64,000 nt of DNA from Caballeronia sp. TF1N1 (GTDB lineage: Bacteria; Pseudomonadota; Gammaproteobacteria; Burkholderiales; Burkholderiaceae), in the NCBI RefSeq assembly GCF_022878925.1, contig NZ_CP084626.1, forward strand, positions 1,798,001-1,862,000. Reading direction: 5' to 3'. Position 1 is the first letter of the stretch. Every line of letters begins with the position of its first letter. The notes beneath the pieces were generated by a model, which saw only the letters and a list, made by a program, of their open reading frames with translations, was not told the origin of the DNA and searched no databases. The position numbers and the translations under genes were made by a program. Shown here in pieces: positions 11,483-58,349 of the stretch.

Positions 11483-11567
11483 TGGTGCCGACGGCGAGAC
11501 TCGAACTCGCACAGCTTTCGCCACTACCCCCTCAAGATAGCGTGTCTACCAATTTCACCACGTCGGC
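11483..11567 (-). tRNA. tRNA-Leu(GAG)
   Basis: The minus strand folds into a class II tRNA. The acceptor stem GCCGACG pairs with CGTCGGC, followed by A and an encoded CCA (11485-11483). The anticodon arm CTATC-TTGAGGG-GGTAG has anticodon GAG (reads CUC/CUU), there is a long variable arm typical of tRNA-Leu, and the T loop is GTTCGAGTC. 85 bases including CCA. It sits between secG and nuoA. Confidence 0.97.
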
Positions 11568-19557: not shown

Positions 19558-21102
19558 TCAAAGCTGCGGGTTGAGCTTTTCGACCTTCGAATGCAGCTTG
19601 TTCAACGCGGCGATATAAGCCTTCGCCGACGCCGCGATGATGTCCGGGTCCGTGCCCACGCCATTCACGATCCGCCCGCTCTTCGAAAGACGCACCGTGA
19701 CTTCGCCCTGTGCCTGCGTGCCGGTCGTGATTGCGTTGACCGAATACAGCACCAGTTCCGCGCCGCTATCCACCTTCGATTCGATCGCGTGCAACGTCGC
19801 ATCGACCGGGCCGTTGCCGCGCGCTTCGCCCGTCACTTCCGCGCCTTCGACCGCGAACACCACTTGTGCTTGCGGTTGCTCGCCGGTCTCCGAGTGCTGC
19901 TTCATCGACACGAAGCGGAAGTGTTCCTTCGCCTGCGCTTCCGCCGATTCCTCCGAGACGATCTGCATGATGTCTTCGTCGAAAATCTCGGCCTTGCGGT
20001 CGGCGAGTTCCTTGAAGCGCGCGAACGCGGCGTTCACGTCGGCTTCGGATTCGAGTTGCACGCCGAGTTCTTCCAGACGCTGCTTGAACGCGTTACGGCC
20101 TGACAACTTGCCGAGCACGATCTTGTTCGCCGCCCAGCCCACGTCTTCCGCGCGCATGATTTCGTACGTGTCGCGCGCCTTCAGGACGCCGTCCTGGTGG
20201 ATGCCCGACGCGTGTGCAAACGCGTTTGCGCCGACCACTGCCTTGTTCGGCTGCACGACGAAGCCGGTGATCTGCGAAACGAGCTTCGACGTGGGCACGA
20301 TCTGCGTCGTATCGATACCGACATCGAGCCCGAAGTAGTCCTTGCGCGTCTTGATCGCCATCACGATTTCTTCGAGCGACGTATTGCCCGCGCGTTCGCC
20401 GAGTCCGTTCATCGTGCACTCGACCTGACGCGCGCCGCCGATCTGCACGCCCGCCAGCGAATTGGCGACGGCCATGCCGAGGTCATCGTGACAATGCACG
20501 GAGAAGACCGCCTTGTCCGAATTCGGGATGCGCTCGCGCAGCGTCTTCACGAGATTGCCGTACAGCTCGGGCACGCCGTAACCGACCGTATCCGCGATAT
20601 TGATGGTGCGCGCGCCTTCGTCGATCACCGCTTCGAGCACGCGGCAAAGAAAGTCGATGTCCGAGCGGCTGCCGTCTTCCGGCGAAAACTCGACGTCGTC
20701 CGTGAACTTGCGCGCGAAACGCACCGCAAGACGCGACTGCTCGTACACCTGTTCCGGCGTCATGCGCAGCTTCTTTTCCATATGCAGCGCGGACGTCGCG
20801 ATGAACGTATGGATGCGAAACTGGCTCGCGGGTTTCAAGGCGTCGGCGGCGCGCTGGATGTCCTTGTCGTTCGCGCGGGCGAGCGAGCAGACCGTGCTGT
20901 CCTTGATCATCGAGGCGATCGTGTGGATGGCGTCGAAGTCTCCGTTCGAGCTGGCCGCGAAGCCCGCCTCGATCACGTCGACCTTCATGCGCTCCAGTTG
21001 CCGCGCGATACGGATTTTTTCTTCCTTCGTCATGGACGCGCCGGGGGACTGCTCGCCATCGCGCAAGGTCGTATCGAAGATGATCAACTTGTCTGCTGCC
21101 AT
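19558..21102 (-). CDS. leuA: 2-isopropylmalate synthase
   Basis: First committed step of leucine biosynthesis: condenses acetyl-CoA with 2-oxoisovalerate. 514 residues. The catalytic TIM barrel starts with [18 protein letters not shown] (Arg14/Asp15), includes the metal-binding [13 protein letters not shown] and ends near residue 330. The linker and C-terminal leucine-binding regulatory domain follow (about 390-510). ATG 21102 has GGAG seven bases upstream. The 132 bases between the putative leader peptide stop and this ATG may contain the regulatory RNA. Confidence 0.97.
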
Positions 21103-21234
21103 GTTGGACTCCAGTGGGGAGAATTATCGACTGTTGGAATTATCGCGTTGAAGCGAAAGACAAAAGGGAATTCGGGTGTTCGCGCCACCGCTGGCGTCGA
21201 AAACCTTGAACGAGCAGACGGGAGGCGAGAAGAA

Positions 21235-21321
21235 TCAGCGCGGTAGGCGCGCTAGTAGCGATAGTGCGCGTAGCGACGCACTAGCCGAATGAAGCGAGAG
21301 GGAGAACGAGAAAAAGTTCAT
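21235..21321 (-). CDS. putative leucine-rich leader peptide of leuA (attenuator), not too short to matter: 28 aa
   Basis: Seen directly: ATG at 21321 opens a 28-codon frame ending TGA at 21235. It encodes MNFFSFSLSLHSASAS followed by LRALSLLARLPR. Seven residues are leucine and five of these use CTA (codons 17, 20, 22, 23, 26), a rare codon in such a GC-rich genome. It lies 132 bases upstream of leuA in the same direction. Family knowledge: enterobacterial leuL peptides sense leucyl-tRNA through runs of rare leucine codons. Inference: ribosome stalling at the CTA cluster controls leuA. There is no Shine-Dalgarno, and the promoter spacing puts the transcript start at or next to the ATG, so it is probably leaderless. 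No strong U-tailed terminator is visible downstream, so the mechanism (Rho or anti-antiterminator) is open. Confidence 0.72.
   Translation of the reverse strand: MNFFSFSLSLHSASASLRALSLLARLPR
21251..21285 (-). promoter_or_regulatory. mutually exclusive RNA stems within the leuA leader
   Basis: TAGTGCG (21262-21268) can pair with CGCACTA (21277-21283), while GCTAGT (21251-21256) can pair with ACTAGC (21280-21285). The two stems share bases 21280-21283, so only one can form. They overlap the CTA codons of the leader peptide, the arrangement expected of a translation-dependent switch. Confidence 0.5.
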
Positions 21322-21327
21322 TCGAAA

Positions 21328-21356
21328 ACTATAACGGCTTTTAGGAACGCGTGCAA
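21328..21356 (-). promoter_or_regulatory. sigma-70 promoter of the leuA leader
   Basis: On the minus strand TTGCAC (complement of 21351-21356) is followed after exactly 17 bases by TATAGT (complement of 21328-21333). Both hexamers match consensus at four or more positions. Standard spacing from the -10 places the start nucleotide at about 21321, the first base of the leader ATG. Confidence 0.72.
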
Positions 21357-21488: not shown

Positions 21489-22163
21489 TTAGTAACCGCT
21501 GATACTCGCGCTCACGCGCTGACGCAGTTCGCTACCGTCGGTGAACTGCACGTTGTCGATGCGGCGCGCGCCCTGGAAGCGCTGCTCCCAGTAACCGCTT
21601 TCCATGTCGTCAACGCGGATCGTGCTGCCGGTGGACGGCGAATGCACGAACTTGTTGTCGCCAATATAGATGCCGACATGCGAAAACGAACGGCGCATGG
21701 TGTTGAAGAACACGAGATCGCCTGGCTTGAGATCCGACACGCGGACCTTCTCGCCGACACGGCTCATTTCCTCGGCGCGGCGCGGCAAGGTCATGCCGAG
21801 CGTGTCCTGGAAGACGTATCGCACGAAGCCGCTGCAATCGAGGCCGGAATCCGGTGTATTGCCACCCCAGCGATAACGCACGCCAATCATATTGAGTGCG
21901 CCGACGACCACATCGCCCGCCTTGCTGGCAACGCCAGAAAGAAACGAGCGTGCGCCGCCAGGAGCGCTGGCGGTGTCCGCCGTGGCGGCCACTGAGGTGA
22001 TCTGGGAGGAATTTGAAGCGTTGCCGTTGTTGGCAACTTGGCTACTTTGGCTATTACTGCTGACTTCGTCGGCGAACGCGCCGGAAGTTGTTGTCATCAG
22101 AAGGCCGATCAACATGCCTGCGGCTGCCCGCGCGCATGTCTGAGTCAATGTCAATGGCTGCAT
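21489..22163 (-). CDS. exported NlpC/P60 (C40) peptidoglycan endopeptidase
   Basis: 224 residues from ATG 22163. The N-terminus is a signal peptide (CARAAAGMLIGLLMTTTSGAFA, cut before DEVSS), followed by a Ser/Asn/Thr-rich linker (33-70) and the NlpC/P60 catalytic domain. The catalytic triad residues are Cys110 in GLDCSGFVRYVFQ, His162 in FSHVGIYIGD and His174 in KFVHSPSTG. It is predicted to cut peptide stems in the periplasm, like E. coli MepS/Spr, but no lipobox is obvious, so it is probably soluble. Monocistronic with its own terminator. Confidence 0.9.
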   Translation of the reverse strand: MQPLTLTQTCARAAAGMLIGLLMTTTSGAFADEVSSNSQSSQVANNGNASNSSQITSVAATADTASAPGGARSFLSGVASKAGDVVVGALNMIGVRYRWGGNTPDSGLDCSGFVRYVFQDTLGMTLPRRAEEMSRVGEKVRVSDLKPGDLVFFNTMRRSFSHVGIYIGDNKFVHSPSTGSTIRVDDMESGYWEQRFQGARRIDNVQFTDGSELRQRVSASISGY

Positions 22164-22310
22164 CGGTCGGTAGGTTTTACAATTAAAGACTGAAAAATCA
22201 GGGAGATACGAGAAAGTTTGGAAGGATACTAGCCACAAATTATTTAACTGTCAAAAGAAATAGGAAAATACAATTGAGACGAGCACCCAATTGATGAAAA
22301 AGAAAGATTT

Positions 22311-58256: not shown

Positions 58257-58349
58257 TGGCGGAGACGGAGGGATTCGAACCCTCGATCCAGTTTTTAGCC
58301 AGATGCTCCCTTAGCAGGGGAGTGCCTTCGACCACTCGGCCACGTCTCC
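58257..58349 (-). tRNA. tRNA-Ser(GCU)
   Basis: The minus strand is a class II tRNA of 93 bases. The acceptor stem GGAGACG pairs with CGTCTCC, followed by G and an encoded CCA (58259-58257). The anticodon loop in CTCCC-CTGCTAA-GGGAG has anticodon GCT, reading AGC/AGU. The long variable arm (CATCTGGCTAAAAACTGGATC region) and the T loop GGTTCGAATCC are typical of serine tRNAs. Confidence 0.97.

Follow-up and report, generated by a model that had tools for sequence, protein, structure and literature searches.

In E. coli, the leucine run of the leuL leader peptide is encoded by CUA codons, and leuL is furnished with a Shine-Dalgarno (SD) sequence and an intrinsic terminator. In the tnaC leader of the same species, a Rho site lies directly after the leader stop codon and is shielded by a stalled ribosome, the stalling being due to free tryptophan together with the nascent chain. 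Leucine leader peptides are already known, from enterobacteria, Campylobacter and Corynebacterium, as are leaderless attenuator leaders, from Sinorhizobium and Corynebacterium. The leader described here, upstream of leuA in Caballeronia sp. TF1N1, is predicted to be leaderless and has no U-tailed terminator, in both respects unlike E. coli leuL. As in tnaC, the stop codon is adjoined by a candidate Rho loading site, here a C-rich, G-poor tract, but stalling is predicted to come from a lack of charged leucine tRNA. With leuL of E. coli and Salmonella the leader shares a short ORF in which Leu codons are clustered, 28 residues long in E. coli and located before leuABCD in those species, and the proposed use of ribosome stalling as the sensor (PMC6123439). 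Campylobacter jejuni LeuL also has 28 residues, with five Leu codons that are all rare and lie near the stop codon, before leuABCD, and transcripts there end shortly after the LeuL stop codon (PMC3847290). That study sought leader ORFs with a ribosome binding site (PMC3847290), whereas the Caballeronia leader has no SD sequence. As at our locus, a Leu-rich leader ORF precedes leuA in Corynebacterium (PMC4046766; PMC5784534) and in the actinobacterial LEU element, which likewise has no obvious terminator; LEU forms a pseudoknot, with the Leu codons and the SD sequence paired in its base stem (PMC1262725), whereas computed folds give no such SD switch here.

In Sinorhizobium meliloti trpL the leader ATG is the transcript start (PMC7298713), and the ilvB leader of Corynebacterium diphtheriae is leaderless (PMC5784534), both as predicted for our leader, but these two systems concern other amino acids and belong to other classes or phyla. 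Burkholderia cenocepacia (PMC4603805) and Cupriavidus metallidurans (PMC7563307) both have leaderless mRNAs, and 82 5′ UTRs of B. cenocepacia yield short RNAs, some of them via attenuation (PMC5688073); leuA does not appear in the main text of any of these three reports. Nor is leuA named in the main text of a broad terminator-based survey (PMC2965389). Our literature search, which covered mostly openly available papers and, for the Burkholderia transcript studies, the main texts, returned no report of such a leader for Betaproteobacteria.

An earlier note on this DNA had pointed to a 28-codon frame with five rare CTA codons upstream of leuA, preceded by TTGCAC-N17-TATAGT; both were confirmed in the window, by which we mean the whole stretch that was analysed, 64,000 nucleotides in length (Table 1). 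The frame has seven Leu codons, five of them CTA, the last of which sits three codons ahead of the stop codon. Of the 642 Leu codons counted over 17 long window ORFs, 0.93% are CTA, and the chance probability of at least five CTA among seven Leu codons is 1.5e-9. None of the 34 Leu codons of leuA is CTA, and leuL is the sole site in the window, in any frame, with five CTA within ten codons. From the leuL stop codon to leuA there are 132 bases. Most loci of the genus alignment keep TTGCAC, and TTGC stands at -35 in most of the leaders listed from other families. Across the 7.07-Mb genome the arrangement TTG-N19/21-TATAKT-N6/7-ATG has four matches, leuL being one of them. A search of the leader region with Rfam 15 at the gathering score (in the window and 16 related loci) gave zero matches, and at E values up to 10 just an unrelated chance match; the Rfam matches elsewhere in the window are two tRNA genes (11486-11567 and, on the minus strand, 58260-58349). 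An NlpC/P60-like gene, whose matches fall below curated cut-offs, lies 5′ of leuL on the same strand (21489-22238). By eye, it is followed by a terminator-like hairpin and T run at 21458-21426, and leuL therefore seems to have a promoter of its own.

Table 1. Features of the leuL-leuA region, in window coordinates.
Feature	Position	Strand	Basis or remark
leuL leader peptide gene	21235..21321	-	28 codons plus TGA (ATG at 21321, TGA at 21235); product MNFFSFSLSLHSASASLRALSLLARLPR; frame kept in relatives
leuL CTA codons	21273-21271, 21264-21262, 21258-21256, 21255-21253, 21246-21244	-	
-35 box TTGCAC	21351..21356	-	sequence; kept in most loci of the genus alignment
-10 box TATAGT	21328..21333	-	sequence; 17 bases from the -35 box, 6 before the ATG
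Predicted transcript start, A of the leader ATG	21321	-	promoter spacing, because TATAGT ends six bases 5′ of the ATG
Stem over the first CTA codons, 8 bp	21262..21283	-	minimum-energy fold; arms 21283-21276 with 21269-21262
Leader-end stem, 7 bp; overlaps the stop codon and the final CTA	21236..21254	-	minimum-energy fold; arms 21254-21248 with 21242-21236
C-rich, G-poor tract, candidate Rho loading site	21210..21234	-	directly 3′ of the stop codon
Conserved downstream hairpin, core CGCCA-GCGG-UGGCG plus lower stems	21170..21211	-	folds; z -1.55 for a 51-base segment
GCGGTGG in the downstream hairpin, candidate antiterminator partner	21185..21191	-	complementary to CTACCGC (21246-21240) in the leader tail
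Shine-Dalgarno GGAG of leuA	21109..21112	-	sequence
leuA, 2-isopropylmalate synthase	19558..21102	-	NCBIfam, 905 bits

We read leuL as a likely Leu-sensing attenuator, predicted to be leaderless, in which a stalled ribosome would keep Rho off the transcript before leuA (probability roughly 0.6). That the locus is an attenuator of some kind is highly probable, and, if it is one, a Rho step is a good deal more plausible than its absence. The ribosome would start on the 5′ end of the leader mRNA. With ample charged leucine tRNA it would finish the leader and leave at the stop codon, baring the C-rich tract, on which Rho would load so that the transcript ends before leuA. With little leucine, the ribosome would halt on the CTA codons, a few codons before the stop, and shield the tract; the tail sequence CUACCGC would then be available for pairing with the hairpin's GCGGUGG, and RNA polymerase would read on into leuA. 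The target of this sensor in four sister genera would be a classical intrinsic terminator.

The frame and its Leu codons had been expected to persist while the rest of the sequence drifts, and aligned relatives agree. With a 318-base DNA query, the region was located in 35 of the genus's 36 other genomes, the exception being a genome that is 60% complete (G003), and in none of 24 genomes of other families. Among 30 genus loci (the window's counted), 29 have an unbroken leader with the same ATG and clustered Leu codons, while L020 is frameshifted; the distance to the -10 box is identical in all 30, the box itself reading TATATT in L013 and TATAGC in L017. In 65 leaders from five genera, aligned to one reference and leaving out the frameshifted L020, all 59 gap runs inside the leader are multiples of three; 56 of them have length three, and these are mostly a single shared event. 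On the 3′ side of the leader stop codon, gap runs of all lengths occur. Also 3′ of the stop codon, the 30 genus loci share a near-invariant noncoding block that the earlier reader had not seen. CTA as such is not the conserved unit, because leaders outside the family mostly carry CTG at the equivalent places. Judged from these alignments, the reading frame is a conserved, Leu-codon-rich leader peptide gene, and a real one.

In the following, the group labels g1, g35 and g44 stand for Caballeronia (the window's genus), Burkholderia and Paraburkholderia, and g37 and g49 both for Trinickia; g27, g48 and g36 may be Cupriavidus, Ralstonia and Polynucleobacter. Five of 15 Paraburkholderia genomes gave no leader call (L067, L127, L131, L132 and L137), and in L067 TATAGT is retained before leuA with no Leu-rich ATG frame behind it. 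The leader is frameshifted in L020/L331 and in L336, though the promoter box and the tail persist. L020 and L331 are one contig, of Candidatus Paraburkholderia calva, and L336 is from Candidatus Burkholderia crenata. Both organisms are reduced leaf-nodule symbionts, and leader decay may go along with symbiotic life.

A normal SD sequence before the leader, which the earlier note counted against a leaderless start, is next to absent: SD-like 4-mers precede 1 of 129 leader ATGs, as against 128 of 129 leuA ATGs. Among 82 leaders found by their frame alone and with a box no more than 60 bases away, TATA[GTA]T ends 6-10 bases 5′ of the ATG in 81; where there was a choice of start or box, the one closest to seven bases was used. 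The other 7 of the 89 frame-only leaders lack such a -10 box in that range. Because SD-like 4-mers are rare and the -10 box lies 6-10 bases from the ATG, the prediction that translation of the leader begins on the first base of the mRNA is well supported. In some leaders the box stands 9 bases (L101, L102, L108, L199, L201, L251, L255) or 10 bases (L104, L188) before the ATG, and their transcripts may therefore carry a 5′ UTR of a few bases.

The spread of the leader was assessed in 203 leuA upstream regions (24 + 29 + 30 + 120). Eight places had been left out, namely G342 (contig end), G362 (inner stop), G399 and the partial or second copies G384, G388, G049 and G054 (twice), as had three more (G151, with inner stops, and second copies in G135 and G169); L099, with 31 bases upstream at hand, was scored as a miss. 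A strict test (a start codon, a length of 14-42 codons, four or more Leu within ten codons, and TANNNT ending 5-8 bases 5′) was passed by 107 of the 203 regions, three of which (L072, L222, L237) seem to be false and one (L112) is open to doubt, as against a mean of 2.0 and a highest count of 5 in 20 runs on dinucleotide shuffles and 0 of 203 on the reverse strand. A relaxed test was passed by 129, and a test on the frame only (a length of 18-40 codons, four or more Leu among the final 14 and an Arg among the final four) by 89, with 0-2 passes in five mononucleotide shuffles. The relaxed set, joined with those frame-only leaders whose box lies 5-9 bases before the ATG, comes to 136 of 203. The leader precedes leuA in 28 of the 46 sampled families of the order; the other 18 gave none, nor did genera g40, g41, g42 and g47 of the window's own family (6 genomes). 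The earlier suggestion of a leaderless leucine sensor in a beta-proteobacterium is supported by sequence in its substance, but the feature is not confined to one such organism. In L070, L072, L082 and L083 there is a different frame, by eye seemingly one gene, that ends 54-131 bases before leuA. In many leaders of families f3, f11, f15, f21 and others, a CAATTCG-like motif or CAATTTGAGCAGTA is shared, which sits after a C run, 15-25 bases 3′ of the stop codon.

A wider scan covered one genome per species for 84,980 species with the pattern TATAKT-N6/7-ATG-N42/72-YTRSYGCGCNNNSCGCGCTRA, in which neither leuA nor a frame between ATG and tail was specified, and gave at least 119 matches. Among the matches listed, 116 of 119 are followed by a LeuA start motif no more than 420 bases on, and the frame is unbroken in 115 of the 116 leuA-linked matches. 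Those listed without the link are L306, where the contig ends 14 bases on, L364 and L336; those listed with a frameshift are L331 and L336. Nitrosomonas europaea, Nitrosospira, Nitrotoga, Gallionella, Aromatoleum and Denitromonas are among the matches listed, as are Burkholderia, Paraburkholderia, Trinickia and Caballeronia and many MAGs with broad names. The LeuA start could be placed in 106 of the 119 listed matches, which we refer to as named loci. MAGs titled Sulfuricaulis (L285), Lysobacter (L327), Gammaproteobacteria (L372) and Chitinophaga (L380) bear leaders of the betaproteobacterial kind, and may be mislabelled bins or cases of transfer.

The absence of a U-tailed terminator, reported earlier for this one locus, is confirmed for the window's lineage: an intrinsic terminator occurs in 1 of 41 window-type leaders (2 from g1, 18 from g35, 3 from g37, 10 from g44 and 8 from g49). 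None was found in the five leaders of g31, g32 and g34, and 2 of 46 leaders in other families have one, as have 8 of the 106 named loci, three of them of the Burkholderia type. Conversely, all 37 leaders from the four sister genera (15 from g27, 13 from g48, 1 from g29 and 8 from g36) have an intrinsic terminator between leader and leuA, and all 37 are without the C-rich tract. After removal of the doubtful rows L112, L157, L158 and L172, C minus G over the 25 bases after the stop codon was +0.30 in the 41 window-type leaders and +0.30 in 45 other leaders without a terminator, as against -0.05 in the 37 with one (Mann-Whitney U 2, p 1e-18), a p value that is inflated because the terminator genera cluster in one part of the LeuA tree, with 2-3 changes. 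In 43 leaders of other families, G drops to 4% and C climbs to 51% over the ten bases immediately 3′ of the stop codon. Measured against its own locus, the tract is at or above the 95th percentile in all 35 named loci of the Burkholderia type, and above it in only 46% of the 71 other named loci; it is short, at about 20-25 nt. The earlier idea that Rho or another device stands in for the terminator is strengthened by this tract, though short of proof.

In the LeuA tree (58 rows, a few leaders with the box at 9-10 bases being labelled "none"), the terminator rows stand together in an 11-row branch with support 83/89. The tree requires 2-3 changes of output device, and a leader without a terminator is the widespread state; few events lie behind the alternation of terminator and C-rich tract. 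A tentative scenario, to which we give a little less than even odds, is that Betaproteobacteria share an ancestral leaderless Leu attenuator with a Rho off-switch, and that one branch of Burkholderiaceae swapped in an intrinsic terminator while keeping the sensor. Should these readings hold, leucine synthesis in much of a bacterial class would be under the control of a leader peptide that bypasses SD initiation, leaderless translation would be tied to nutrient sensing and would not be a rarity, and one sensor would work with two output devices, Rho and the intrinsic terminator, the evolutionary exchange of which would be open to study. The leaders would also provide many candidate small genes to annotate, and a ready leucine-responsive part.

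Downstream of the tract, a conserved hairpin, formed by the block that is near-invariant in the genus, occupies the terminator position without an adjoining U run, its lower stem differing in sequence between genera. The 252-base leader region as a whole folds better than shuffles (z -2.16), and the 51-base hairpin segment does so less clearly (z -1.55); three other segments of the leader region are not better than shuffles (z -0.48 to +0.04). Against dinucleotide shuffles, the mean z of the hairpin region was -1.57 in g1 (29 rows), -2.25 in g44 (10), -1.56 in g37 (3), -1.03 in g49 (8), -1.33 in other families (46) and -1.48 in named loci (69). The 29 genus rows represent 28 genomes, L025 and L086 being from the same genome, with L017 (TATAGC) and the frameshifted L020 outside the set. 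In genera with a true terminator, the downstream region reached -4.96 (g27), -4.25 (g48) and -3.21 (g36). No excess structure over shuffles was seen in g35 (z +0.30, 18 rows), nor in g32 and g34 (4 rows).

This hairpin is the basis of the rival that survives best, an unlikely one in our estimate, in which the leader and the stalling are the same and the hairpin itself terminates transcription without Rho, as a weak terminator, either intrinsic or aided by NusA, whose U tract is poor and distant. It sits where the four sister genera have their true terminator, the window has a U-rich stretch, UCCCUUUUGUCUUU, after the hairpin base, the region folds below shuffles in most lineages, and a few loci do score as weak terminators (the 1/41 and 8/106 above). 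Against this, 40 of the 41 window-type leaders are without a terminator by the test used, Burkholderia has no excess structure at the hairpin, and neither the C-rich tract nor its absence in the terminator genera would be explained.

Under the Rho reading the hairpin would be a pairing partner of the leader tail. The tail motif and its hairpin complement both occur in all 29 genus rows; elsewhere the respective counts are 17 and 17 of 18 for g35, 3 and 3 of 3 for g37, 6 and 8 of 8 for g49, and 9 and 6 of 10 for g44. Compared with shuffled tails, the real tail paired more strongly with the hairpin or terminator arm in g1 (z -2.14), g48 (-2.38) and g36 (-2.56), less so in g27 and g35 (-1.35 each), g44 (-1.11), g37 (-1.05) and g49 (-0.88), and no stronger in the single row of g29 (-0.02); outside the genus it is weak, with a median p of 0.09-0.16 in g35, g37, g44 and g49. 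An antiterminator pairing of the tail with the hairpin is plausible on these figures, though not proven. Equilibrium folding of the stalled, at-stop and free states gave no usable switch, and the hairpin positions are doubtful for the window's group; in the terminator genera no useful switch appeared because the finished terminator always wins. We attach no weight to this simulation.

Within the leader, folding reproduced the two short stems over the CTA region that had been proposed as mutually exclusive. Both coexist in the minimum-energy fold, but a third pairing, that of GCUAGU (21285-21280) and ACUAGC (21256-21251), noticed by eye, is incompatible with either stem, and mutual exclusion is therefore possible by sequence. 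Compared with dinucleotide shuffles, the leader end has a lower folding energy in the genus (29 rows, mean z -1.84), but not in other families (-0.20, 46 rows) or named loci (+0.88, 69 rows). RNAalifold gave a short leader-end hairpin in most clade alignments and weak structure elsewhere; its appearance in the named set is not evidence, because the selection pattern fixes part of the tail. Compensatory changes in the leader-end hairpin of family f43, where TGCCC with GGGCA/GGGCG replaces TGCGC with GCGCA/GCGCG, come from two sequences only. In 26 genus leaders, codons 2-12 vary about equally at the three codon positions (0.262, 0.241, 0.293), and amino acid constraint is therefore not visible there. 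Codons 21-28 are near-constant at every position (0.069, 0.000, 0.095); the tail is therefore probably under RNA-level constraint as well.

The same figures bear on a reading in which the peptide itself acts, as a stalling nascent chain or as a small protein in trans, with the conserved end LLLR-x-AR or ARLPR as the working part, which we consider improbable. These tail residues are alike even among distant families, and in Sinorhizobium a leaderless leader peptide has a role in trans (PMC7298713). However, the low variation at third positions of the tail codons (0.095, against 0.293 in codons 2-12) points to the RNA, and the terminator genera have other tails (GRQVGTRA, LGAGKA).

Slightly less probable still is translational attenuation, in which the stalled ribosome would alter access to the leuA SD sequence, as proposed for actinobacterial leuA, where the LEU element pairs Leu codons with the SD sequence (PMC1262725). 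CUCC in the C-rich tract is complementary to GGAG, but the pairing of tract with SD was no better than that of shuffled tracts (z +0.31, +0.54), and we rejected the tract as an anti-SD element. Computed access to the leuA SD is near-constant over the free, stalled and at-stop states (0.41 throughout in g1), the largest rise being from 0.47 to 0.58, in g36. SD sequestration as the output is thus unsupported, and by these computations neither the Leu codons nor the leader sequester the leuA SD. That the CTA run is a chance frame, a by-product of a DNA or RNA palindrome with no leucine sensor, is very improbable and is refuted by in-frame conservation: the CTA region is indeed rich in inverted repeats, but Leu codons, as CTG or GGCCTACTAGG, keep their place in the unrelated sequence of other lineages.

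Two further sites in the same genome came to our attention. L384 (C2:384405-384443, minus strand) is a 34-codon, leaderless-looking frame, MLIKFNPFSAGSPENRIEALFTTPKASLRKYRSI, behind TTGACG and TATATT. In L385 (C2:1391560-1391598, plus strand) a 308-codon frame starts six bases after TATATT; by eye it encodes a helix-turn-helix repressor, and it is a candidate leaderless regulator.
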